Shown piece after piece: positions 4,155 to 64,000 of a stretch of 64,000 nucleotides of DNA; the stretch's first letter is position 1; each line of letters begins with the position of its first letter. The stretch comes from Rugalucina vietnamica (Eukaryota > Mollusca > Bivalvia > Lucinida > Lucinidae): NCBI GenBank assembly GCA_964017185.1, contig OZ024878.1:4774151-4838150 (forward strand), in the 5' to 3' direction. The translations under genes were made by a program, and so were the position numbers. The notes below the pieces were generated by a model. That model was not told the DNA's origin, made no database searches, and worked only from the letters and a program-made list of their open reading frames with translations.

Positions 4155-4567
4155 ATTTTTTGTTTCTTCTGGAAGCTGTTTTGATTTGGAAATCGCTAAG
4201 TGGCTTTTGGCATGTTTAGGGGAAAGCAAAATTGCCTATAGTTATTGGTGATAAGCTACACTATTGAATGTTTGACTAATGTGAAATCATTTTTTTTGTT
4301 TATTTTTTTTTTTATTGACATGCCTCTTTCCTCTCAAAATAACAAATTTGTAGTGTGTAAATTTTGTTTTCAATTGCAGTTAATATCTAAATATTATTGA
4401 TGAAGTAGTAAGTCAGGTTAGTTAGCTTTATCATGGGGAAACTTCTTGTTGTAGAATTTCATAAAAGAAATAAGCGTGCATTCCCAGCTGTAATTCACCT
4501 ATGAATAATATCCAGAAGAGTGCCAAATCTATTTTCTGATATTGCAGCCCAAAAATCCAAATTTCTG

Positions 4568-4636
4568 GATGCTGTTTTAATGTCTCCAAGAAGCCCTTCG
4601 GGCTTCACAGGAAGGGATTCACAGACATTAAAACAG
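4568..4636. repeat. isolated palindrome
   Basis: GCTGTTTTAATGTCT is matched in inverse by AGACATTAAAACAGC, with an inner hairpin GAAGCCC/GGGCTTC. It resembles the core of a MITE without clear outer ends. Confidence 0.6.
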
Positions 4637-4847
4637 CCCAATGTTTTTTCATCATCCAGTGAAAGCTAAAATCTGAATTTCATTCCTTAAGAATTTTCCC
4701 ATGACTTGGCATGAATATTGTGAACAAATTGCAAAAGATAGTAACCAATACTTGTCAAGAACTGCTTTTGATTTGATGTTTCGGAAATGTTTTTTTTTTC
4801 ATCAGAATATTCAATAAAATCAAACCAATAATTACCAAAGCATAAAT

Positions 4848-19520: not shown

Positions 19521-19537
19521 AAAAAAAGTACAAATAG

Positions 19538-19808
19538 GCGATGATCAGGAAATGGCGCAATCAGAAAGAAATTCCCACTCCATAAAACGAGGGGTCGGAA
19601 AAACTAAAATGACACTTAGGCACTTATACCATGAAAACATGTCGTAAGCCAAGTGAGCAGCTATTCCCGAATGGGCGGCCACTCAGTTACCCGAACTGAA
19701 CTAAAAATATGAAAACGTACATAAGGCTCAAACAGCACAAAAATTCGACTCCAAAACACAAAACAGTTAGAACCACAACATAAGTATCGCCTTGGAACGA
19801 TCTTGAAG
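19538..19808 (-). mobile_element. Naiad terminal (pLTR) fragment, inverted
   Basis: Complement of the 23360-23640 tail: GATCAGGAAATGGCGCAATC, GGCCACTCAGTTACC and TCGCCTTGGAACGATC are diagnostic. Tail to tail with 18826-18945. Confidence 0.75.
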
Positions 19809-21474: not shown

Positions 21475-21598
21475 ATTTATAATGGTTAAGGCACACCTTT
21501 GTGGTCAAGCTTTGCTAATTATTGCTTCCAGTGATTATGAAGTCATATGGATCTATCAAGAAAGCCTGCCGAATTGTCAATGGCATTATGGGTCTTGT

Positions 21599-21770
21599 CT
21601 AAAATTTTTGCTCAAAACATAGATTGTGGGTAAACGTTACTAACGAGTACCTACAATCTATGTTTTGGAGCAAAAATAAGAAAAATAGGTATACCCTGCA
21701 TACCCCTGTTTTGCTATATAAAAGTGGGGTACTAGTGGATATATATTACATGGAAATGTTATCCTGGCCC
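21599..21770 (-). mobile_element. palindromic MITE family B, copy b (partial)
   Basis: Has GCTCAAAACATAGATTGTGG and CTATGTTTTGGAGCAAAAAT arms with the apex reduced to GTTACTAACG. The 3' part of the family is missing. Confidence 0.7.
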
Positions 21771-22120
21771 CGAGGTTATAAAACTTTTTTCATGCTCAAC
21801 TCAGCTGAGCATGAAATTTAAAGCGCTCATAATTGCTGAAATAACCCAAATTGGTTGAAATTTCAGGTTCAGATTGCCAAAGCCTGTAATTTATCCTGCT
21901 AATAAACCAAACCATTTTGTTCTTGACCATTCAAGGCATTTCTGTTGTTATTTATCTCTATTTGCTTGTTTAAACCTTGTCTGTCTGTCAGTTGCACTCA
22001 TCATCTTTGTTTTTGGTTGATGCTAGGAAAATGGCTACATTACTTGGAAAATTCTACTATCTTCCTCATGCATGTTAATACATTTGTATCTGCTCCGCTA
22101 TGTAGTCATAAGACAGACTT
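21771..22120. other. no gene seen
   Basis: AT-rich, with a small hairpin ATGCTCAACTCAGCTGAGCAT near 21793. It ends where the truncated Naiad copy begins. Confidence 0.3.
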
Positions 22121-22121
22121 T

Positions 22122-23014
22122 CCTATCTCCTGGATAATATTTATATTAGATTTGGGACCAAGTTATACAGACAAATTGTTGGAATTCCGATGGGTACAAA
22201 TTGCGCACCTCTCGTAGCTGATTTATTTTTATACTGCTATGAAAGAGATTTCATGGATTCTCTTAACCATGATAATCAAGCTGATGTTATCAAGGCTTTT
22301 AATTCCACTTCTAGGTACCTCGATGACCTTTTGAACATTGACAACCCTTATTTTGAAGGTATGGTCAATCAAATTTATCCATCTGAACTACAGTTGAACA
22401 AAGCCAATATCTCGGATACCGAAGCCCCATTTTTAGATCTACATCTTTCTGTTGCAAATGGATTTGTTTCTTCTAAAATTTATGATAAGCGCGATGATTT
22501 TGATTTTGATATAGTAAATTTTCCGTTTTTGGATGGTGACGTTCCTCGTCGTGCTTCTTATGGTGTATACATTTCGCAACTTATTAGGTTTGCTAGAGTC
22601 TGCAATCATGTTACAGACTTCAACGCTCGAAATAAATCTTTAACGGCCAAACTTCTCCAACAGGGCTATCGGTATCATAAACTTCGAAAAACCTTTTCTA
22701 AATTTTATCGTAGACACTATGAATTGATTTCCAAATATAATGTTGGGTTAAAGACGCTTTTAAGTGAGGGTCTTTCGGAACCAGAATTTTATGGTGACTT
22801 GGTTTACAAATTTAAGAAACTTATAGGAAGTAATGATTTTTCTTTTCAGTTTAGAAAAATCATAACACGTTACAGACGTATAGGTTATAACTTGAATGTT
22901 ATGCGACAGTCTGCATGCTTAGTTTTTAACCCAATCACGGTTGATAACTATGCTGCCTTCTTTAATTGCACGCCGGTGGGTCGGGCGTCAGACTCTATGA
23001 TGGCGCCAACTTAA
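22122..23014 (+). pseudogene. Naiad reverse transcriptase, 5'-truncated
   Basis: Carries RT motif B (GIPMGTNCAPLVADLF), motif C (RYLDDL) and the thumb region, but lacks fingers and motif A. About 99% identical by eye to the main copy. It ends SDSMMAPT then TAA, and the decayed copy near 63.2 kb also has this ending. The main copy lacks two bases here and reads on. Not functional alone; it shows what the native C-terminus probably is. Confidence 0.8.
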
Positions 23015-23046
23015 AGCTATTCATTTTAGTTGGTTGGGGCCGGAGC
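22995..23046 (+). promoter_or_regulatory. SECIS-like hairpin, truncated copy
   Basis: ATGA at 22997-23000, then 12 bases, AA at 23013-23014, then 28 bases, then GA at 23043-23044. The arms can pair around the AA-containing loop. Same spacing as in the two other Naiad copies. See 27945-27997. Confidence 0.5.
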
Positions 23047-24010
23047 TTCTTGTCTGTTGCTTGGCCCACCGGGGTCCAACTGATGTTTTTCTTTAGCTCC
23101 GGAGCTAGTAAGTTATTTGGCGCCCAGGGATCTCCATCGTCGGGCAGCTTACTGAATCTGTGAGTCCTGGTTTTTGATTCATCAGGATGTTTATCATGAT
23201 TTATTTGTTTGTTCTTGATGATTCATTTACTAGTTAGAGATTCACCACGAGGACCGAAGAACTAACTAAATGTTATGAACCACTGCAGAAGCTGAGGGTG
23301 AGGTTACGGCCGTGTAAAATCGATTTAAACCCGCCAGTAACTTTGTGTTACTGATCGTTCCAAGTCGATACTTCTGTGGTGGTTCTTTTTAATTTATGTC
23401 TTGGTGTTTAAAATATTTTTGTGCTGTTGGCGCCTTATGTATGTTTGCAAATTTTTAGTTAAGTTAAGGTAACTGAGTGGCCACCTATTGGGAAAATAGC
23501 TGCTCATTCGGCTTACGAAGTGTTTTCATGGTATAAGTGCCTGATTGTTAGTTTGGTTTTTTCCCACCTTGGTTTTTGGAGTGGGAGTCTTTTTCTGATT
23601 GCGCCTTTTCCTGATCTTTGCCTACTTGTACTTTTTTTATATCAGAGTTCTTGTGGTTGTGCCGTGTGGCGGCCCTAAAAAGTCTCCCCGTACATCCATT
23701 TAATGCTCTTATTTTTCCAATCCTCAGGGATTGCTTGCAATCAGTTTGTATTTTCCTATCTCTAACTACCACAACTCTTCGATACCGTATTGAAGGTCAT
23801 TAGTTGACCGTCACTCGTATCTCGTTGTATAAACGATTCTTACGTTTCTATCCATAGACTTGTATTAGACATGGACCTGAGATGTGGGCTTCGGTTATAC
23901 CTTGTTCTTTCATTTGAGAGATTTTGCATTACGATTAAGTGCATTATTTTTTCTATAACCGGTATGTGTGTCGCGCTTCTTTTGGCAGTATCAACACAGA
24001 ACTCCCAACT

Positions 24011-24884
24011 ATGACTATCACAAAAAGATTAGGAATTACATTAACTCCCCTTAGGTTGCATGCCGCGTCTACTGTACGGATTCCTCGTTCAACTAACAAT
24101 TTTCAAAATTTATTACCTACTGTTAGGGTGACACCTCTTAATTTATTTTCGGCATCTACTGTTAATCTACACGGAGCTTCTAATTCTAATATGTTTCGTA
24201 ATAATCTTCAGATAAGGTTATCTCCACTTAAATCACCAATTTTACGTAAATATATTAATCCGTTCAAGAGACCTGGAATGTACCCTAGTATTTCTAACTG
24301 CAATGCCAAGAAGTGCAACTGTTGCAATCATTTATGCTCTAAGACTACTATCACTTCATCTGTGAATGGTAGGACATTTTCAGTGGTTAATGATTCTGAT
24401 TTAGACTGAAAATCAATGGATCTTGTATATGTTCTTACTTGAAATACAAACAATTGTGGGATGCAGTATGTTGGACAAACTTGTCGAACTTTGCAAAAAC
24501 GATTTGGTGAGCACTATCGTAGAATCAGAAAGCCCAAAAATAATGATACCTTTCTGTACCAGCATTTTAAGCGCACTGGTCATTCTCCCAATAATGTTAT
24601 AGTTCAACCAGTGGAAAAAATCTCATATGATGAAAATTCTTCTGTTAGATTCAAAAACATCAAACGATTTGAAACTGAACTTAAATGGATAAAATTATTG
24701 CAAACTCCCTTTCCACTGGGATTTAACGACAACATTTACCATGAGGGAAATATTTCCAAAATGCCCGATTTTGATGTACTTACACTTTCAGAGTCTCGTA
24801 AACGTAAATCTAGATCTCATGGTATACGGAAAAAGGGTAATGACAAACGTAAACGGTGCGCTACAATGAAATTGAACACTTCCC
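24011..24884 (+). CDS. Naiad ORF part 1: zinc-binding linker and GIY-YIG endonuclease
   Basis: Read from ATG 24011 (MTITKRLGITLTPL); an upstream in-frame ATG at 23939 is also possible. A Ser/Thr/Asn-rich N-terminus leads to a cysteine-rich segment (NCNAKKCNCCNHLC), then the nuclease with MQYVGQTCRTLQKRFGEHYR (the YVG half of GIY-YIG, the catalytic Arg region) and later HF...TGH histidines of the CCHH finger typical of Penelope endonucleases. It cuts target DNA to prime reverse transcription. The frame contains TGA at 24407-24409 and 24440-24442, both exactly where relatives have Cys (about 11 residues apart, then NNCG). Otherwise it is open from 23939 to the insertion at 24885. The TGAs are either selenocysteine codons or two inactivating mutations at Cys codons. 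Confidence 0.8.
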
Positions 24885-25612
24885 TTAAGGACTTATGGGT
24901 GGTCACTGTATATACATAATTGAAGATTTACCTGTATAAAAAAGCATTGTTTATTTTGTCAACAATGCTACATTCTTTAGCATGCTTTATCATGGGACTA
25001 TTGAATATGTTGCAAATACATGGATTTGTGTATACATGATTGTGGAATGAGTGTTCAGCTCAGAGCAAGTGAGTCATTTTTCAGTTACTTCCGGGTTGAA
25101 ATCGTCGGACCCATTTTTCTTAGCTTTTTGAAAAAAATAAGACAGATTTCTCGATGTAGTCATTGACTTCAATCATATAAGAACCTGAAACAAAAGGCAT
25201 GTCATCTTTCAGCAAACAATAAGCGCACACGAGCCGCCCCAAGTTACCCACTTTCAGAATTTTTCAGAAAAATATGTTTACACTATCTTTTCCGAGAGAA
25301 ATACATTTCCATGACCCCAAAATAACCCTTTATTTGTCAGATTATGTATCCTAGACATTTAGGCTTTGCGTAATTTTTATTCAAATGCATTCCATTTTCC
25401 AGGAAATGGGTCCCACGAAAACCAGTTACATTTCCAATTTTACACCAAGCTATTTAAAATTTTAAAATAATAACTATATTGAGTCATTCCTAGAATCAGT
25501 GACGTCTATTAGCAATAAATACACATCCTCATTCGATTGAAAGATTCAAGAAAACAGCAGATTTCTGTTTTACATACCCCACCCACTCATGTCAATATTG
25601 ATAAATCCTTAA
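24885..25612. mobile_element. TTAA-type MITE inside the Naiad ORF
   Basis: Bounded by TTAA at 24885-24888 and 25609-25612, with short inverted ends GGACTTAT and ATAAATCC. A second copy is at 39391-40109, also between TTAA sites, sharing almost the whole length. Removing one TTAA plus the insert (724 bp) puts the flanking Naiad frames in register. TTAA duplications are typical of piggyBac- and Kolobok-type transposases; none is encoded here, so the element depends on one elsewhere. Confidence 0.8.
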
Positions 25613-26109
25613 TGTTTTAGCTGTTAAACTAAGGATTCACGGTCGACATCCAATGCTGTCTTATCTTAGTTCTCTGCCTATTGCTGTATTACGTTCCTTG
25701 GACACAGAGGCTAATAGATTTTACGATAGAAATCATCAAATGTATGACGCTGCACTGTTAACAAGATGTTATACCCAGCATGCTCTTCGTCCATTTATCG
25801 ATTCCGAATCTAATCACATTAGAAGTTTTATTAAAATTCCTTTCATTAATAAAGGAATTGACTTTATTGATTTACCAAGCATATTCCAGGATAAATCAGT
25901 GATACAGTCTATACCTACGTACTTCCAAAATTCAGAACCTCCTATTATTTGTTACAAATATAATAAACCAATCAGAAATACTATTTTTAATTTCAATAAA
26001 CTTGTTTCTGATCTTGATATCCATGCTAATACTCCTAAGTCTTGAGATTGTAAAGATTCAAAATTTGTTTATCAACCAGCCGGACATATAGTTACTGGAA
26101 ATTTAAAAA
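25613..26109 (+). CDS. Naiad ORF part 2: linker with CxC motif
   Basis: Continues in frame from part 1 across the MITE. It includes HGRHPMLSYLSSLP, a fingers/N-terminal region (YTQHALRPFIDSES), and the linker DCKDSKFVYQPAGHIVTGNL just after the TGA at 26043-26045. In Naiads this linker has a CxC motif; here the first position is TGA and the second is TGT (Cys), i.e. TGA-Asp-Cys. The segment joins the endonuclease to the RT. Its frame breaks in the A-run 26105-26110, where one fewer A would continue into part 3. Confidence 0.75.
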
Positions 26110-28113
26110 ATAATTTCGGATTCTAGAATTCGCAAAATTGTTTCTAAAGGTCCGAAATATAGATTCCCATCATACATCAATTTCGATAAATGTAGAGAGG
26201 AGATTGCATCTGCATTGAATGATTTCGGTAATCGATGGTTTAAACGAGAGGGTGTTGAGGATAATGCTCTTAAAGAATGGAAAAGAAGTATCTTCACTAT
26301 CGTGGATAAACGTATACAGTTTTATTCACAAAATACTAATCTTTTACCTCCTAAACCTAAATCGTCATTTAGGCATTTGAAGCAGGGTATCCAAGAATTT
26401 CACAGAAAGTATGTCTTGGTTCCGGCAGACAAAGCCGCAAACTATGTTGTTGTTTGTAGGCTTCACTACGTTAACACCTTAAAACAGGAGCTGGATGGTA
26501 CCAGGGCTTATCTGGAGACAGATACTGATGAGGTGTCTGTAGTAAATGCCCACTTAAACGATTTACCTGTTAAGTTTTCTGTTTGTGTCAATGAAGGCCA
26601 AGACAAACTTCCTACGATGTATTGGTTACCTAAGCTTCACAAAAGACCATACAAAGCAAGATTTATTGCAAATTCTAGCTCTTGTTCTACTACTGAACTT
26701 TCTAAATTATTAACTTCCTGTCTTACTGCTATCAAATCTCATGTTATAAGATACTGTGAGACAGTGTATGAAACTTCAAATAAAAATTGGTTTTGGTCAA
26801 TAAAAAATTCTGGTGAGGTGCTCAATAAATTGAAGTGTAGAGGGTTCCGTGCGACGAGCTTGTCCACATATGATTTTTCTACTCTGTATACAACTTTACC
26901 ACATAATCTAATTAAAGAAAAACTTCTGGATTTGATAGAGTGGACCTTCAAAAGGGCATTAAAAAACTATGGTTCACTTTATTTGGCATGTAATGACAGA
27001 AAGGCTTTTTTCACTTCCTCTGACCAAAGTCGGTATACACTTTGGTCATGTCAGAATGTGTGCGACGCCTTATCCTATCTCCTGGATAATATTTATATTA
27101 GATTTGGGACCAAGTTATACAGACAAATTGTTGGAATTCCGATGGGTACAAATTGCGCACCTCTCGTAGCTGATTTATTTTTATACTGCTATGAAAGAGA
27201 TTTCATGGATTCTCTTAACCATGATAATCAAGCTGATGTTATCGAGGCTTTTAATTCCACTTCTAGGTACCTCGATGACCTTTTGAACATTGACAACCCT
27301 TATTTTGAAGGTATGGTCAATCAAATTTATCCATCTGAACTACAGTTGAACAAAGCCAATATCTCGGATACCGAAGCCCCCTTTTTAGATCTACATCTTT
27401 CTGTTGCAAATGGATTTGTTTCTTCTAAAATTTATGATAAGCGCGATGATTTTGATTTTGATATAGTAAATTCTCCGTTTTTGGATGGTGACGTTCCTCG
27501 TCGTGCTTCTTATGGTGTATACATTTCGCAACTCATTAGGTTTGCTAGAGTCTGCAATCATGTTACAGACTTCAACGCTCGAAATAAATCTTTAACGGCC
27601 AAACTTCTCCAAAAGGGCTATCGGTATCATAAACTTCGAAAAACCTTTTCTAAATTTTATCGTAGACACTATGAATTGATTTCCAAATATAATGTTGGGT
27701 TAAAGACGCTTTTAAGTGAGGGTCTTTCGGAACCAGAATTTTATGGTGACTTGGTTTACAAATTTAAGAAACTTATAGGAAGTAATGATTTTTCTTTTCA
27801 GTTTAGAAAAATCATAACACGTTACAGACGTATAGGTTATAACTTGAATGTTATGCGACAGTCTGCATGCTTAGTTTTTAACCCAATCACGGTTGATAAC
27901 TATGCTGCCTTCTTTAATTGCACGCCGGTGGGTCGGGCGTCAGACTATGATGGCGCCGACTTAAAGCTATTCATTTTAGTTGGTTGGGGCCGGAGCTCCT
28001 TGTCTGTTGCTTGGCCCACCGGGGTCCAACTGATGTTTTTCTTTAGCTCCGGAGTTAGTAAGTTATTTGGCGCCCAGGGATCTCCATCGTCGGGCAGCTT
28101 ACTGAATCTGTGA
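26110..28113 (+). CDS. Naiad ORF part 3: reverse transcriptase
   Basis: The frame is open from 26110; the first ATG (26215) gives 632 residues, but true translation would come from upstream. Residues counted from that ATG: PADKAANYVVV at 70-80, LPKLHK at 138-143, RFIANSS at 149-155, motif A YDFSTLYT at 219-226, motif B GIPMGTNCAP at 307-316, motif C RYLDDL at 351-356 with the catalytic aspartates intact, then a basic thumb (TRYRRIGYNLNVMR). It copies the element's RNA at the nicked target. Compared with the truncated copy and the 63-kb copy, two bases are missing after SD, so translation runs about 60 residues into what is normally untranslated tail. Confidence 0.9.
   Translation: MISDSRIRKIVSKGPKYRFPSYINFDKCREEIASALNDFGNRWFKREGVEDNALKEWKRSIFTIVDKRIQFYSQNTNLLPPKPKSSFRHLKQGIQEFHRKYVLVPADKAANYVVVCRLHYVNTLKQELDGTRAYLETDTDEVSVVNAHLNDLPVKFSVCVNEGQDKLPTMYWLPKLHKRPYKARFIANSSSCSTTELSKLLTSCLTAIKSHVIRYCETVYETSNKNWFWSIKNSGEVLNKLKCRGFRATSLSTYDFSTLYTTLPHNLIKEKLLDLIEWTFKRALKNYGSLYLACNDRKAFFTSSDQSRYTLWSCQNVCDALSYLLDNIYIRFGTKLYRQIVGIPMGTNCAPLVADLFLYCYERDFMDSLNHDNQADVIEAFNSTSRYLDDLLNIDNPYFEGMVNQIYPSELQLNKANISDTEAPFLDLHLSVANGFVSSKIYDKRDDFDFDIVNSPFLDGDVPRRASYGVYISQLIRFARVCNHVTDFNARNKSLTAKLLQKGYRYHKLRKTFSKFYRRHYELISKYNVGLKTLLSEGLSEPEFYGDLVYKFKKLIGSNDFSFQFRKIITRYRRIGYNLNVMRQSACLVFNPITVDNYAAFFNCTPVGRASDYDGADLKLFILVGWGRSSLSVAWPTGVQLMFFFSSGVSKLFGAQGSPSSGSLLNL
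27945..27997 (+). promoter_or_regulatory. SECIS-like hairpin at the Naiad ORF end
   Basis: ATGA (27947-27950), 12 bases, AA (27963-27964) in the loop, 28 bases, GA (27993-27994). Arms GGCGCC/GGGGCC and ACT/AGT can pair. In the 63-kb copy the stem is better (GGCCCC with GGGGCC) and the 3' core is TGAG. SECIS elements recruit SBP2 to decode UGA as selenocysteine. The spacing fits eukaryotic SECIS rules; the fold was judged by eye only. It is unusual in overlapping the native stop codon. Confidence 0.5.
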
Positions 28114-28338
28114 GTCCTGGTTTTAAATTCATCAGGATGTTTATCATGATTTATTTGTTTGTTCTTGATGATTCATTTACTAGTTAGAGATTTACCACGA
28201 GGACCGAAGAACTAACTAAATGTTATGAACCACTGAAGAAGCTGAGGGCGAGGTTACGGCCGTGTAAAATCGATTTAAACCCGCCAGTAACTTTGTGTTA
28301 CTGATCGTTCCAAGTCGATACTTCTGTGGTGGTTTTTT
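28114..28338 (+). other. Naiad 3' untranslated tail
   Basis: Matches 23162-23358 of the truncated copy. It contains a second possible stem-loop (CATTT...AGTTAG with CTAACTAAATG, 28170-28217) followed by TTATGAACCACTG. No coding sequence. Confidence 0.7.
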
Positions 28339-31300
28339 AGCTCACCTGAGCCGTCAGGCTCACAAGGTGAGCTTATAGGATGGCCATGATCCGGCGTCCG
28401 TCCGTCCGTCCGTCGTCCGTCCGTCCGTCGTCCGTCCGTCGTCCGTCGTCCACCATTTTCAAAGATCTTCTTCTCTGAAACCGCTTGGCCAACCAAAGCC
28501 AAATTTTACATGAAGCATCTATGGGAAGGGGGAACCAATGTATATATAAATAATCCAGGTCACATGACCAAGATGGCCACCATGCCCATATATGGTAAAA
28601 ACCCTTCAAAAATCTTCTTCTCCGGAACCGGTGGATTGATTTCAACGAAACTTGGCATGAAGCATCGATGACTCAAGTACTACAATGTATATATAAATCA
28701 TGACCTTGCGGTGACCTTGACCTATTTTACGGCAAGGTCAACATAGGTCGCCAATGCATTTGAATGGGGAAAACTTTTAAAATGTCATTTAAAGTGAAAG
28801 TCTTGCAGGAAATGGGCAGTAGGACTGAATATTAATGATTCTGAAAAAAATTGGACCCCAGGGGCTCATATGCCCGGTAGCCGGACAACTCGGACCCAAG
28901 ACAACTCGGACCCTTGGTATTTTTCGGACCCAAGACGAATCGGACCCAAGCCTGAGACAACTCGGACCCATTTTTGAGACGACTCGGACCCAAAAACAAG
29001 GACGACCATGCAAACAGTTTCTATTTTATTATGTAGATAAAACTTGTATAAAACACACATACTTGCTAAAATCATAATGCAGCTCATGATGTTATTTTGT
29101 GTAACCTGGGTTATTGAATATACTTGAACATTTGGTAACTACTTTGATATGATGCTTCTGTGATAATATGTTAAGCAAAATGCATTTAATTGAGTCATTT
29201 ATCTGTAATAACGCAGCTCATGGTGTTATTTTGTGTAACCTGGGTTACTGAATTTACTTGGACATTTGGTGACTACTTTTTTTTTTTTTTTTTCCGAAAA
29301 CAAAAAAAAAAAAAAAAGCAAAATAATGCATGACATTGAGTCATTTATCTTTAATAATGCGGCTCATGATGTTATTTTGTGTGACCTGGGTTATTGAATT
29401 TACTTGGACATTTGGTGACTACTTTGATATGATGATTCTGTGATAATATGATAATAGTGATGTTTCAATATTATCAACTTTTTACAATACACAAAAACTC
29501 ACCTGTATGCACAAATGACACCTCAACTAAGTATCTCGATTCATTCGATAATTGTTTATCAATCACGACTTCTGTAATCGATAATCGATAAGCGATAATC
29601 AACAAACAAATTATTATTTTTATTTAACAGAGTGTATTTGGGATTTGAGTGGTAAATATGATAGACACTGATGACTTAAGTTTTTAGATACGGTGCAGTG
29701 TACTGCCTTTCAAATAAAACATAATTTACTTGGCTCGCAAATTTTGTGAGTCTTCATCGCATATGTTGTACAGACGGTACTATCACATTTGACATTCAGA
29801 TCAGACATCGTCTTAAATCACTTTTGGTCACTCTTCACAAATTTGCAGAAAACATAAAAGTTAAAAACCAAGTTTACGCAGTTAAAATGCATACAACTTT
29901 AAAAATCATAAACCAATGTTTAAAATAAATTAAAAGTCTAAAACACATCCATTCTAAAACCATTGTGTTCATTCGTTGCATTGAAATTGGTAGTTCCGTT
30001 ATACATGCAGTTGCGTAATAAAGACTGCTTACTCGTCTTATGAGTTTTATAAACATTTAAGATAATGCACTAGGTCATTTGTAGCCACGAACCTCTCGGC
30101 CCCGGGGGATTTATGATCGCGTCCGTATATCGTCCGTCAGCAAGGGTCCGATTCGTCTTGGGTCCGAAAAGGTTTGGGTCCGATTCGTCTTGGGTCCGAA
30201 AAGGTTTGGGTCCGAGTCGTCCCAGAAATTTTGGGTCCGAGTCGTCTTGGGTCCGAGTTGTCTGACATTCATATGCCCCCACCCCGGGGCAATATACATG
30301 TATATTACCATAACATTCAAACATCATCTCCTCTGAAACCGCTTGGCCAATCAAAGCCAAATTTTATGTGAAACATCAATAGGAAGGGGTAATCAATGTG
30401 TATATAAATAATCCAGGTCACATGGCCAAGATGGCCGCAATGCCCATATATGGTAAAAACCCTTCAAAAATCTTCTTCTCCAGAACCGGTGGATCGATTT
30501 CAAAGAAACTTGGCATGAAGCATCGATGGCTCAAGTACTACAATGTGTATATAAATCATGACCCTGTGATGACCTTGACCTTTTTTACGGCAAGGTCAAC
30601 ATAGGTCGCCAATGCATTTGAATAGGGAAAACTTTTAAAATGTCATTTAAAGTGAAAGTCTTGCAGGAAATGGGCAGTAGGACTGAATATTAATGATTCT
30701 GAAAAAAATGGACCCCAGGGGCTCATGTGCCCCCAACCCCGGGGCAATATACATGTATATTACCATAATATTCAAACATCTTTTCTGAAACCGCTTGGCG
30801 AATCAAAGCCAAATTTTATGTGAAGCATCTATGGAATGGGGGAATTAATGTATATATAAATTATCTAGTTCACAGGACCAAGATGGCTGCCATGCCCATA
30901 TAAGGTAAAAACCCTTCAAAAATCTTCTTCTCCGAATCTGGTGGACCGATTTCAAAGAAACTTGGCATGAAGCACCAATGGCTGAAGTACTACAATGTGT
31001 ATATAAATTATGACCCTGTGGTGACCTTGACCTATATTAAGACAAGGTCAACATAGGTCGCCAATGCATTGGAATTGGGAAAACTTTTAAAAAGTCATTT
31101 GAGGTGAAAATCTTGCAGGAAATGGGTAGTAGGACTAAATATTAATGATTCTGAAAAAAATGGACCTAAGGGCTCATATGCCCACACCCGGAGGCAATAT
31201 ACATGTATATTACCATAATATTCAAACATCTTCTCCTCTAAAACCACTTGGCCAATTGAAGCCAAATTTTATGTGAAGCATCTATAGGATGGGGGAACCA

Positions 31301-31735
31301 ATGTATATATTAATAATCTAGGTCACATGACCAAGATGGCCGCCATGCCCATATATGGTAAAAACCCTTCAAATATCTTCTTCTCTGAAACCAATAGATT
31401 GACTTCAATGAAACTTGGCGTGAAGCATCCATGGCTATAGTACTACAATGTATATATAAATCATGACCCTGTGATGACCTTGACCAAGTTTATGGCAAGG
31501 TCAACATGGGTTGCCCATGCATTTGAATGGGAAAAACTGTTAAAATGTCATTTGAAGGGAAAAGCCAGTAAGAAATTGGCAAATGGACAGAATATTGATT
31601 ATTCTGAAAAAAGAAAACGGCCCAAGGGCTTCATCTGCCCCTGCACTGGGGTTAAATACCATAATATTCAAACATGTTTGTTGGTATATGCAGCAGACTC
31701 AGGTGAGCGTTTACAGGACCATTGGTCCTCTGGTT
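28339..31735 (+). mobile_element. AGCTCACCTGAGC HINE-like element in the Naiad tail
   Basis: Starts AGCTCACCTGAGCCGTC with its hairpin partner, then GTCCGTCCG repeats, and ends with AGGACCATTGGTCCT and CTGGTT. The flanks rejoin the Naiad tail as in the uninterrupted copy at 23358. The body is about four units of roughly 450 bp (marker AACTTGGCATGAAGCA at about 28650, 30510 and 30960, variant near 31410). The first unit is split by a foldback-like element. Insertion into a T-run fits Helentron-type behaviour. Confidence 0.7.
28867..30278. mobile_element. foldback-like element II with perfect 9-bp duplication
   Basis: Element 28876-30269 (1394 bp) is flanked by CATATGCCC on both sides (28867-28875, 30270-30278), and the uninterrupted host repeat has this word once. 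The left arm is an array of words like GACAACTCGGACCCAA (28884-28997). The right arm is the inverse, TTGGGTCCGAGTCGTC (30146-30262). The interior has three partial direct repeats (marker TTATTTTGTGTAACCTGGGT at about 29091 and 29226, variant at 29373), a poly-T/poly-A stretch, and no gene. A 9-bp duplication is usual for foldback and Mutator-like elements. Confidence 0.85.
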
Positions 31736-31985
31736 TGTTTTATGTCTTGGTGTTTAAAATATTTTTGTGCTGTTGGCGCCTTATGTATGTTTGCATATTT
31801 TTAGTTAAGTTAAGGTAACTGAGTGGCCACCTATTGGGAAAATAGCTGCTCATTCGGCTTACGAAGTGTTTTCATGGTATAAGTGCCTGATTGTTAGTTT
31901 GGTTTTTTCCCACCTTGGTTTTTGGAGTGGGAGTCTTTTTCTGATTGCGCCTTTTCCTGATCTTTGCCTACTTGTACTTTTTTTC

Positions 31986-32304
31986 TATTTAAATAATTGT
32001 AGGTCTAGTAAATGTTTTGCAGTATCTTTTGTTTCTTTCCTGCCTGACATTTTTGAATTGGGGTTTTCAATTTGATCAGTTTCTAGACCTTCTATTCTTA
32101 CATTTTCATCAATGGTATGCCTGAAATAGTACTTGTTGCTTGGTACTGGGTGGTGTTTTGTGTTATCCATGTTTCAGTCAGCAGTGAAGAGTATGGTGTG
32201 TGCGTGTGTGTTTTGTCAATTTATTAACTGTCATTTCTCTTGGGGACTTTGGGGATATGATTAGTTAAAGTGGTCCTAAAATGACCATCTACTTTGAAGT
32301 CACA
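31986..32304. other. no gene seen
   Basis: AT-rich sequence after the Naiad end. No exon or repeat recognised. Confidence 0.35.
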
Positions 32305-32570
32305 TAGAAACGGTAAAAGTAGGCAGTGATCAGGAAATGGGGCAATCAGATTGAAAAACCGAGGCTGGAAAAGACTAAATTGACAATCAGAGAACTCACT
32401 TGTAAGCCGAGTGAGCAGGTATTCTCCAATAGGGGGCCACTCAGTTACACGAACTTAACCAAATACATGAAAAAAAATACATAAGGCGCAAACAGCACAA
32501 AATTTCAACTCCAAAACATAAAACAGTTTGAACCATTACAGAAGTATGGCCTTGGAATGATCAGTAATAT
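32305..32570 (-). mobile_element. Naiad terminal fragment, inverted
   Basis: Complement of the 23370-23640 tail (GATCAGGAAATGGGGCAATC, GGCCACTCAGTTAC, GGCCTTGGAATGATCAGTAA). It lies tail to tail with the main copy, 320 bp away. Confidence 0.75.
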
Positions 32571-32734
32571 AAAATTACTTACGGGCTTAAGAGAAAATAG
32601 GCAAAAGTGACCTTTGATCCTTGAACTAGAGGTTACGTGTATTTAGACTGGCCAATGGGATTTTGAAAAATTATGTTTTTCTTTTTCATTTTCCACTATA
32701 GATCTTTTCTTCTTTTTTTCTTTGCTTTGCTTCT

Positions 32735-39390: not shown

Positions 39391-40109
39391 TTAAGGACTT
39401 ATGTGCGGTCACTGTATATACATGTTTGAAGATTTACCTGTATAAAAAGCATTGCTTATTTTTGTCAACGATGTTACATTCTTTAACCTGCTTTATCATG
39501 GGGCTGTTGAAAATACATGGATTTGTGTATGCATGATTGTGAAATGAGTGGTCAGCTCAGAGCAAGCGAGTCATTTTTCATTTACTTCCGGGTTTAAATC
39601 GTGGGACCCATTTTTCTTAGCTTTTTGAAAAAAATAAGCTAGGTTTTTCGATGTTGTCATTTACTTCAATCATATAAGAACCTGAAACAAAAGGCATGTC
39701 ATCTTTCAGCAAACAATAAGCGCACACGAGCCGCCCCAAGTTACCCACTTTGAGAATTTTCCAGAAAAACATGTTTACACTAACTTTTCCCAGAGAAATA
39801 CATTTCCATGACCCAAAAATAATCCTTAATTTTTCAGATTATGTATCCTAGACATGTAGGCTTCGTGTAATTTTTATTCAAATGCATTCCATTTTCCAGG
39901 AAATGGGTCCCACGAAAACTAGTTGCATTTCCAATTCTTAACCAAGCTATTTAAAATCTTAAAAGAATAACTATATTAAGTCATTCCTTTTATCTGTGAC
40001 GTCTATTTGCAATAAATGAACATCTTCATTTGATTGACAGATTAAAAAGAACAGTAGATGTCTGTTTAACATACCCCACCCACTCATGTCAATATTGAAA
40101 AATTCTTAA
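39391..40109. mobile_element. TTAA-type MITE, second copy
   Basis: Bounded by TTAA at 39391-39394 and 40106-40109. Homologous along its length to 24885-25612 with scattered differences. It lies in intron 3 of the calponin-homology gene. Confidence 0.8.
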
Positions 40110-41204: not shown

Positions 41205-41420
41205 TCTTACGTTTTCATAGTTTTAGTTAAGCTCGGGTAACTGAGTGGCCGCCTATTGAGAAATAGCTGCTCACTCGGCTTACGATATGTTCTCTAAGTA
41301 TAAGTACCTAATTGTCAATTTAATTTTTTCCCGCCTCGGTTTTTGGAGTGAGAATTTCTTTCTGATTGCGCCTTTTCCTGATCATTGCCAGCCTACTTGT
41401 ACCTTTTTATCGTTATGCCC
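41205..41420 (+). mobile_element. Naiad terminal fragment
   Basis: AACTGAGTGGCCGCCTATTG, GCTCACTCGGCTTACGA and GATTGCGCCTTTTCCTGATC match 23466-23639. Confidence 0.75.
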
Positions 41421-43242: not shown

Positions 43243-43535
43243 TTTACTTCTGCTGTGGTTCTTATTGTTTTATGTTTTGGTGTTGAATTTTTGTGCCGTT
43301 TGCACCTTATGTACGTTTTTATTTATTTATTTATTTATTTATTTTCATATTTTTGTTAAGTTCTGATAACTGAGTGGCCACCTAATGAAAAATAGCTGCG
43401 CACTCGGCTTACGAAATGTTTTCTTAGTATAAGTACCTGATTGTCAGTTTAGTTTTTTCCCACCTCGGTTTTTGGGGAGGGAATTTCTTTCTGATTGCCC
43501 CGTTTCCTGATCATTGCCGACTTTCACCTTTAGTA
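43243..43535 (+). mobile_element. Naiad terminal fragment with microsatellite
   Basis: TCTGCTGTGGTTCTTATTG, GTGGCCACCTAATG and GATTGCCCCGTTTCCTGATC match the Naiad tail. A (TTTA)n tract (43319-43344) is embedded. Confidence 0.7.
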
Positions 43536-59593: not shown

Positions 59594-59737
59594 ACATCAG
59601 GGAAACATGTCCGTGAAATAAATAACCCCTTATACCCCACTTTTATATAGTAAAACTGGGGTATGCAGGGGTTATACCTATTCAGTGTATTTTTCTTATT
59701 TTTGCTCCAAAACATAGATTGTGGGTACTCGTTAGAA
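59594..59737 (+). mobile_element. palindromic MITE family B, copy i, cut at its apex
   Basis: The left half is intact up to GGGTACTCGTTAGAA, then the sequence switches to the Naiad tail. Confidence 0.8.
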
Positions 59738-60005
59738 CTGATCGTTCCAAGGCGATATAATACTTCTGTGGTGGTTCTTATTGTTTTATGTCTTGATGTT
59801 GATTTGTGCTGTTAGCGCCTTATCATATTCTGTTTTAAATTAAGTTTGGGTAACTGAGTGGCCGCCTATTGCGAAAATAACTGCCCGTGTGTTTTCTTAG
59901 TATGAGTACCAGATTGTTAACTTAGTTTTTCCCACCTGGTTTTTGAAGTGGGAATTTCTCTCTGATTGCACCATTTCCTGACCATTGCCTACTTTTACCT
60001 TCATT
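59737..60005 (+). mobile_element. Naiad terminal fragment
   Basis: ACTGATCGTTCCAAGGCGAT, CTTCTGTGGTGGTTCTTATT and CTGAGTGGCCGCC match the Naiad tail through to CCTGACCATTGCC. Confidence 0.8.
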
Positions 60006-62885: not shown

Positions 62886-63540
62886 GACTTCTCCAACAGG
62901 GCTATCGGTATCATAAACTTCGAAAAACATTTTCTAAATTTTACCGCATACACTATGAATTTATTTCCAAATTTAATGTTGGGTTAAAGACGCTTTTACG
63001 TGAGTGCCTTTAGGAACCAGAATTTTATGGTGACTTGGAAACTTACAGGAAGGAATTATTCTTCTTTTCAGTTTAGAAAAATCATTGTACGTTATAAGCG
63101 TATAGGATATAACTTAAGCGACAGTCTGCGTGCTTAGTTTTTAACCCAGTCATGGTTGATAACTATGCTGCCTTCTTTAATTGCATGCCGGTGTGTCGGG
63201 TGTCAGACTCTATGATGGCCCCGACTTAAAGCTATTCACTTAAGTTGGATGGGGCCTGAGCTTCTTGTCTGTTGCTGGCCCACCGGGGTTCAACTGTTGT
63301 TTTTCTTTTGCTCCAGTTTTACAATAAATTGTCTGGCGCCCAGTGGATCTCCATCAGCTGATCTCCGTCGACGGACAAATTATTGTATCTGTGAGTCCTC
63401 GTTTTTTATTCATCTTGGTGGTTATTTGTTTTTGCTTAATGATTCATTGACTATTTAGAGATTCACCACGAGGACCGAACAACGAACTAAATGTTGTGAA
63501 CCACTGCAGAAACTGAGGATGAGGTAAAGCGCCTGTAAAC
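62886..63540 (+). pseudogene. Naiad RT C-terminal fragment and tail, decayed
   Basis: Begins CTCCAACAGGGCTATCGGTA, matching 22658 onward. It has a stop (TAG after GTGAGTGCCTT) and deletions. The end SDSMMAPT-type with TAA and the SECIS-like hairpin are kept (ATGA 63212-63215, AA 63228-63229, GA 63258-63259). Confidence 0.8.
63210..63261 (+). promoter_or_regulatory. SECIS-like hairpin, 63-kb copy
   Basis: The best-paired version: GGCCCC (63217-63222) can pair with GGGGCC (63251-63256), and GACTT with AAGTT. The core is ATGA...AA...TGAG with the same 12 and 28 base spacings as in the other two copies. Confidence 0.5.
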
Positions 63541-63551
63541 TGTGATTAGTT

Positions 63552-63722
63552 GAAAGGTACAAGTAGGCAAAGATCAGGAAAAGGCGCAATCAGAAAGAAA
63601 TTCCCACTCAAAAAAACCGAGGTGGGGGAAAAACTGAATTAACAATCAGGTACTTATAAAATAAAAACATATCGTAAGCCGAATGAGCAGCTATTTTCCC
63701 GATAGGTGGTCACTCAGTTACC
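63552..63722 (-). mobile_element. Naiad terminal fragment, inverted
   Basis: Complement of the Naiad tail (GGCAAAGATCAGGAAAAGGC, GTGGTCACTCAGTTACC). Tail to tail with 62886-63540. Confidence 0.75.
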
Positions 63723-63744
63723 TAAATTTAACTATAAAATATGA

Positions 63745-64000
63745 AAAGGTACAAGTAGGCAAAGATCAGGAAAAGTCGCAATCAGAAAAAGATTCCCACT
63801 CCAAAAACGGAGGTGGGGAAAAAACTAAATAAACAATCAGGTACTTATGCCATGAAAACATATCGTAAGCCGAATGAGCAGCTATTTTCCCAATAGGTGA
63901 CCACTCAGTTACCCAAACTTAACTAAAAATATGCAAACATACATCAGGCGCCAACAGCACAAAAATTTTGAACACCAAGACATAAAACAAAAAGAAACAC
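63745..64000 (-). mobile_element. Naiad terminal fragment, inverted, second tandem copy
   Basis: Same segment again, extending further (GGCGCCAACAGCACAAAAAT, CAAGACATAAAACA) and running off the window. Confidence 0.75.

Follow-up and report, generated by a model that had tools for sequence, protein, structure and literature searches.

It is very likely that the window, a stretch of 64,000 nucleotides taken from the genome of the lucinid bivalve Rugalucina vietnamica, carries a dead copy and a partial tandem copy of a Naiad-type Penelope-like element (PLE) whose intact copies encode a selenoprotein of 1077 residues with three selenocysteine (Sec) residues, inserted under the direction of a SECIS hairpin. 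In the proposed mechanism, each intact copy would give rise to one protein of 1077 residues, composed of an N-terminal GIY-YIG endonuclease, a linker and a C-terminal reverse transcriptase (RT), and the UGA codons 133, 144 and 437 (referred to below as sites 1, 2 and 3) would be read as Sec by the host machinery. This machinery would comprise the tRNA-Sec (anticodon UCA), which was found, together with SECISBP2 and eEFSec, whose participation is presumed. A single SECIS hairpin, located where the ORF ends, is predicted to direct the decoding, and the UAA codon would terminate translation. The insertion of Sec is predicted from sequence, and the three residues may have metal-binding or redox roles. 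Selenocysteine had already been suggested for the three codons in an earlier, sequence-only reading of this DNA, and the suggestion has gained support from intact ORFs, from purifying selection past the TGA codons, from the SECIS and from the tRNA-Sec, which are described in the following sections.

The element in the window

The three TGA codons of the main copy were confirmed from the letters at 24407-24409, 24440-24442 and 26043-26045. The first two are read in the frame of the GIY-YIG endonuclease segment (Pfam E 8e-6), and the third stands in the context S-TGA-D-C. The sequence-only reading had described the frame from 24407 to 26045 as otherwise open, which is wrong for the window copy and correct for intact copies elsewhere in the genome. 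When TGA is read as an amino acid, 25 stops are still in frame over this interval, because the ORF is interrupted by a 712-bp interspersed repeat and the RT segment does not share the frame of the linker segment. The interruption by the repeat and the frameshift also mean that this copy is dead. The same reading had remarked that standard tools would annotate the copy as a pseudogene; as a label for this copy it is accurate, yet intact copies in the same genome carry the identical three TGA codons. The features of the element in the window are as follows.

22118..23638, plus strand: upstream partial copy, 5'-truncated, which retains the C-terminus of the RT, the SECIS and a pseudo-LTR and forms a partial tandem with the copy that follows (99.0% identical to intact copy L033 by blastn over 1522 bp)
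22989..23056, plus strand: SECIS of the upstream partial copy, straddling the TAA stop at 23012-23014 (SECIS_1 E 4e-4 at 35.0 bits, a score that, as printed, coincides with the gathering score; fold z -4.98)
23270..23638, plus strand: pseudo-LTR of 369 bp separating the full unit from the upstream partial copy (corresponding place in the window to the 369-bp direct repeat of L033)
24011..24901, plus strand: first coding segment, N-terminal region and GIY-YIG endonuclease, codons 1-297 (tblastn 97% to the intact L033 protein; Pfam GIY-YIG E 8e-6 at about 24422-24595)
24407..24409, plus strand: TGA codon 133, predicted selenocysteine 1 (TGA in 21/21 copies; Cys in 8/9 other PLE endonuclease sequences in the masked alignment)
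24440..24442, plus strand: TGA codon 144, predicted selenocysteine 2, 11 residues past the first (TGA in 21/21 copies; Cys in 9/9 unmasked, gap when masked)
24895..25606, plus strand: nested 712-bp interspersed repeat interrupting the ORF, ends known to within about 13 bp (41 scored genome matches including itself)
25608..26108, plus strand: second coding segment, linker region, codons about 292-458 (tblastn 97.6% to the L033 protein)
26043..26045, plus strand: TGA codon 437, predicted selenocysteine 3, first position of the U-D-C (CxC-like) motif (TGA in 20/20 readable copies, one unreadable)
26107..27945, plus strand: third coding segment, reverse transcriptase, codons 458-1071, frame shifted in the window copy (tblastn 99.0% to L033; canonical PLE RT E 2e-15)
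27939..28008, plus strand: SECIS of the full window copy, weakened by changes (Rfam SECIS_1 26.4 bits, short of the gathering score, E 0.089; fold z -3.37)
28220..28338, plus strand: 3' pseudo-LTR, truncated (blastn 97.5% over 120 bp)
62887..63539, plus strand: older decayed fragment of the same element family, 83.5% identical (blastn), with its own SECIS match at 63204-63271 over the TAA at 63227-63229

The SECIS match of the older fragment scores 31.6 bits with SECIS_1 (E 5e-4), below the gathering score of 35, and folds poorly alone (z -1.38). Isolated pseudo-LTR-like pieces, 78-98% identical, are scattered over the window at 19521-19802, 31734-31988, 32402-32590, 41208-41408, 43335-43523, 59737-59998 and 63553-64000, and the part of the last piece at 63553-63937 is a two-unit tandem repeat. 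The 712-bp repeat has a second copy in the window, at 39401-40103 (90% identical), and its 41 genome-wide matches, which were scored out of 1185 candidates, are nearly all 97-98% identical. Rfam matches to twister-P1 at 23322-23385 and 28272-28336, in corresponding places of both pseudo-LTR copies, reach 23 bits against a cut-off of 67 and are probably due to chance.

The assignment to the PLEs rests on comparison with a canonical PLE of the same genome (L053), to which the element protein aligns in permuted order: its endonuclease (residues 92-239, E 7e-13) matches the C-terminal endonuclease of the canonical element, and its RT (residues 560-974, E 2e-15) matches the RT that lies upstream there. 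L053 (G000:C15:425600-428800) has an open frame of 964 aa and belongs to a run of matches spaced 3893 bp apart; many further matches of equal score exist. The Pfam GIY-YIG family is found in the separate endonuclease segments of two intact copies (L033 and L034) and the window (E 8e-6 to 1e-5); a scan of the whole L033 protein listed no GIY-YIG even at E 10, and no RT family was listed for the element protein at E up to 10. PDB sequence searches gave no match at E up to 1 for the endonuclease; with the RT (E 0.03) and the whole protein (E 0.06) as queries, a single weak match was obtained, to an unrelated protein. An AlphaFold model of the window endonuclease built without relatives had a mean pLDDT of 32.5 and was discarded. 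A CCHH motif is a feature of PLE endonucleases; in the element, two His columns align with the canonical PLE and the two Sec/Cys columns are located upstream of them. The pseudo-LTRs of L033 are 369-bp direct repeats (87-455 and 4303-4671) that are 100% identical, with a unit of 4216 bp, and tandem runs of matches about 4226 bp apart occur in the genome, for instance five on C15. No hammerhead ribozyme was detected in the four intact copies at the gathering score or in window positions 21500-29500 at E up to 1.

Three TGA codons shared across the genome

The genome that was searched comprises 1.09 Gb in 47 contigs, and 20 full copies were taken from among the highest-ranking matches to the window, a choice that over-represents young copies. 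Four of these 20 (L033, L034, L036 and L044) contain a single ORF of 1077 codons with exactly three TGA codons, at positions 133, 144 and 437, and a TAA stop, while the remaining 16 are broken or without a single spanning frame. The sequence-only reading had proposed aligning the genomic copies to look for recurrent TGA at the three columns. When this was done for the 20 fetched copies and the window copy, all 62 readable cells were TGA (21/21, 21/21 and 20/20 at sites 1, 2 and 3). As that reading had argued, decay would also be expected to yield TAA, TAG and positions other than Cys, and the ten other stop-making substitutions in the 21 copies are indeed mixed (five TAA, three TAG and two TGA), with one of the ten at a Cys codon. 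Similarly, across 30 endonuclease loci, many of which are copies already aligned, TGA occupies the three sites in 30/30, 30/30 and 28/28 cases, and stops elsewhere are five TAA, three TAG and three TGA. The three TGA codons are real features of the element and not products of decay.

Copies with TGC or TGT at these columns, which had been named beforehand as the observation that would count against Sec, were not found in force. Genome-wide counts of exact sequence patterns with TGA versus TGC, TGG or TGT gave 532 to 0 at site 1, 449 to 0 at site 2 and 995 to 5 at site 3, and the five at site 3 (two TGT, one TGC and two TGG) are as expected from scattered mutation. A Cys codon (TGT or TGC) at site 3 in an otherwise identical context occurs at G000:C1:16609595, C1:77689337 and C8:62554348. 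In a search with the endonuclease, 128 matches were scored out of 2112 candidates, and two TGA codons were present in 126 of them (three of these with other stops in addition), three in one and one in one. The search tool passes U as Cys, and Cys-bearing copies would therefore have been favoured. In the match with a single TGA, site 1 is CGA, a change that a simple transition explains and that does not give Cys.

The copies are closely related, and the common TGA is therefore partly a matter of shared descent. Given a mean codon difference from L033 of 4.0%, about two changes are expected in the 59 cells outside L033, so that the invariance of TGA alone is not decisive. It is conceivable that a defective master copy, in which the TGA codons are genuine stops, was spread by the enzymes of other elements, all copies being pseudogenes by descent: the fetched copies are all close relatives, 16 of the 20 are broken or unspanned, and the TGA codons could derive from one defective ancestor. 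We nevertheless regard this as very improbable, since the intact copies hold exactly three TGA codons and no other stop, TGA sits at a Cys column of relatives, the SECIS is less variable than the flanking 3' UTR, and pN/pS is low (0.14-0.28) both past the first TGA and past all three.

The pN/pS values were obtained by simply counting distinct substitutions relative to the majority codon and do not amount to a phylogenetic test. In the 21 copies, pN/pS is 0.49 for codons 1-132, 0.26 for codons 134-436, which include the second TGA, and 0.26 for codons 438-1077. For the four intact copies, the values for the same three segments are 0.75, 0.14 and 0.17, the first of which is based on few changes (two synonymous and five not). 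The other 17 copies gave 0.45, 0.28 and 0.28, and 0.29 over the whole ORF, which suggests that the lineages were still working when most of the differences arose. Purifying selection acts on the ORF and is stronger downstream of the first TGA than ahead of it, the reverse of what would be expected of a true stop.

The sequence-only reading had also placed all three TGA codons at conserved Cys columns. For comparison, nine endonuclease sequences from other PLEs of this genome, representing about four families as judged by eye, were selected among 150 GIY-YIG matches. In an alignment in which the TGA residues were masked, eight of the nine have Cys at site 1 and the ninth, a decayed sequence (L060), has Phe, and for this site the claim holds. 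For site 2, masking results in a two-residue gap whichever of the three alignment modes is used, and without masking the site aligns to Cys in nine of nine; the spacing between sites 1 and 2 is 11 residues in both the TGA-bearing and the Cys-bearing groups, and the equivalence of site 2 is by spacing only. At site 3, the U-D-C of codons 437-439 places TGA at the first Cys place of a CxC motif, an assignment made by position alone. An older subfamily with Cys at site 3 was sought with the 62.9-kb fragment as DNA query, and among 40 scored matches of 8115 candidates none of the eight upstream stretches reached the three sites. No relatives were found in viral contigs with the RT and endonuclease as queries, or in prokaryote genome contigs with the full protein as query.

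The SECIS hairpin and the proposed decoding of UGA

A match to Rfam SECIS_1 of 39.0 bits (cut-off 35) is located at the end of the ORF in three of the four intact copies. The fourth, L044, has an intact ORF and a four-base deletion in the SECIS loop, and is without a SECIS_1 match at the cut-off. The hairpin of L033 folds with a z of -5.1, and a stretch of L044 that covers the 5' arm incompletely with a z of -2.8. In 22 copies, the non-coding half of the SECIS has accumulated 0.009 substitutions per site and copy, versus 0.026-0.056 in the following blocks of the 3' UTR. The 3' side of the SECIS core has been given as KGAW (PMC7409322), and the element departs from this form with GGAG. A eukaryotic SECIS can serve any in-frame UGA, several per message, according to a review (PMC8704476). 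Two of 24 tRNA-Sec matches in the genome exceed the family cut-off (79 and 71 bits), both with the anticodon TCA, and 22 fall below it; as a control, 5 of 14 prokaryotes gave matches above the cut-off.

These results also bear on whether UGA could be read through as an ordinary amino acid, by a near-cognate tRNA or a suppressor, in place of Sec. Such read-through does not require a SECIS, and the SECIS match is itself a prediction. However, the score above the cut-off in three of four intact copies, the alignment of site 1 to Cys and the presence of tRNA-Sec all speak against it, as does another PLE, L055, whose frame is closed by TGA at the place where its relatives L056 and L058 have TAA. 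The use of TGA as the final stop in L055 indicates that this codon is not obviously reassigned in the genome, and we consider ordinary read-through even less probable than descent from a defective master copy. A third possibility is that the TGA codons act as regulated stops, at which ribosomes terminate and re-initiate with at most slight read-through, so that the endonuclease, linker and RT are made as distinct products. Equal selection on the segments would also be shown if they were translated separately, but only 10 codons lie between codons 133 and 144, both TGA codons are inside the endonuclease region that aligns to the canonical PLE (residues 92-239) and the SECIS would be purposeless, which makes this as hard to credit as ordinary read-through.

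The ORF of the intact copies ends in S-D-S-M-M-A-P-T-TAA; here the 5' arm of the SECIS and the AUGA of its core fall within the final codons, and adenines of the apical AAA motif form part of the UAA stop. In an alignment read by eye, the TAA letters are intact in 21 of the 22 SECIS copies, and the remaining one (L041) is deleted there. The three SECISs of the window (22989-23056, 27939-28008 and 63204-63271) all straddle the stop place in the same way, with the core in the last codons and the apical adenines within UAA, and in the main copy the TAA letters over the SECIS are not in frame. This overlap of the SECIS with the reading frame and the stop is an unusual detail, which we do not claim as unpublished. 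There is a report of a functional SECIS located within coding sequence (Mix et al. 2007, cited through PMC7409322). The location of the hairpin on the stop suggests that termination may disturb the SECIS, which is offered here as an idea. In a more specific and rather unlikely version, the overlap would be functional: a ribosome ending at UAA would melt the hairpin, and each finished protein would briefly switch off the Sec decoding of that RNA. If true, the overlap of SECIS and stop would be a built-in brake that limits the full-length RT-endonuclease made per transcript, and transposition would be sensitive to both selenium supply and translation load.

Consequences and comparison with known systems

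If the TGA codons were taken as stops, all copies of an element that is abundant and, it appears, active in recent times would be annotated as pseudogenes. Decoding as Sec would have a further consequence, as a retroelement that needs three Sec insertions is predicted to have its movement tied to the selenium supply of the host. With hundreds of copies beside Cys-bearing relatives in one genome, the element is also well suited as a natural test case for the reasons behind the replacement of Cys by Sec.

Naiads encoding multi-selenocysteine proteins were reportedly described in clams and spiders by Craig, Yushenova, Rodriguez and Arkhipova in 2021 (Mol Biol Evol). The principle of multi-Sec Naiads is thus already reported, and the family itself is already known if the host was part of the 2021 data set. 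A literature search made without the text of Craig et al. 2021 found no source in which Naiad, Penelope-like and selenocysteine occur together, or Penelope-like elements and selenoprotein. Judged by the features reportedly given by Craig et al. 2021, we take the element described here to be a Naiad: like these elements, it combines an N-terminal GIY-YIG endonuclease, a CxC-like linker and a C-terminal PLE RT in one ORF, and it shares with them pseudo-LTRs, tandem copies, several in-frame UGA codons, a SECIS and the lack of a hammerhead match. The canonical PLE with a C-terminal endonuclease (L053) has a homologous RT and endonuclease; in contrast, its domain order is reversed, and it has Cys codons and no TGA at the two endonuclease columns.

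The GPx of fowlpox virus, which is presumably unrelated to the Naiad-type protein, offers a second point of comparison. Its SECIS likewise overlaps the coding sequence (PMC7409322), whereas in the element of the window the SECIS straddles the stop codon itself. Selenoprotein P (SELENOP) is similar in that several UGA-Sec codons are present in one message (PMC8704476). However, SELENOP is a host protein, while the element of the window is a retroelement.
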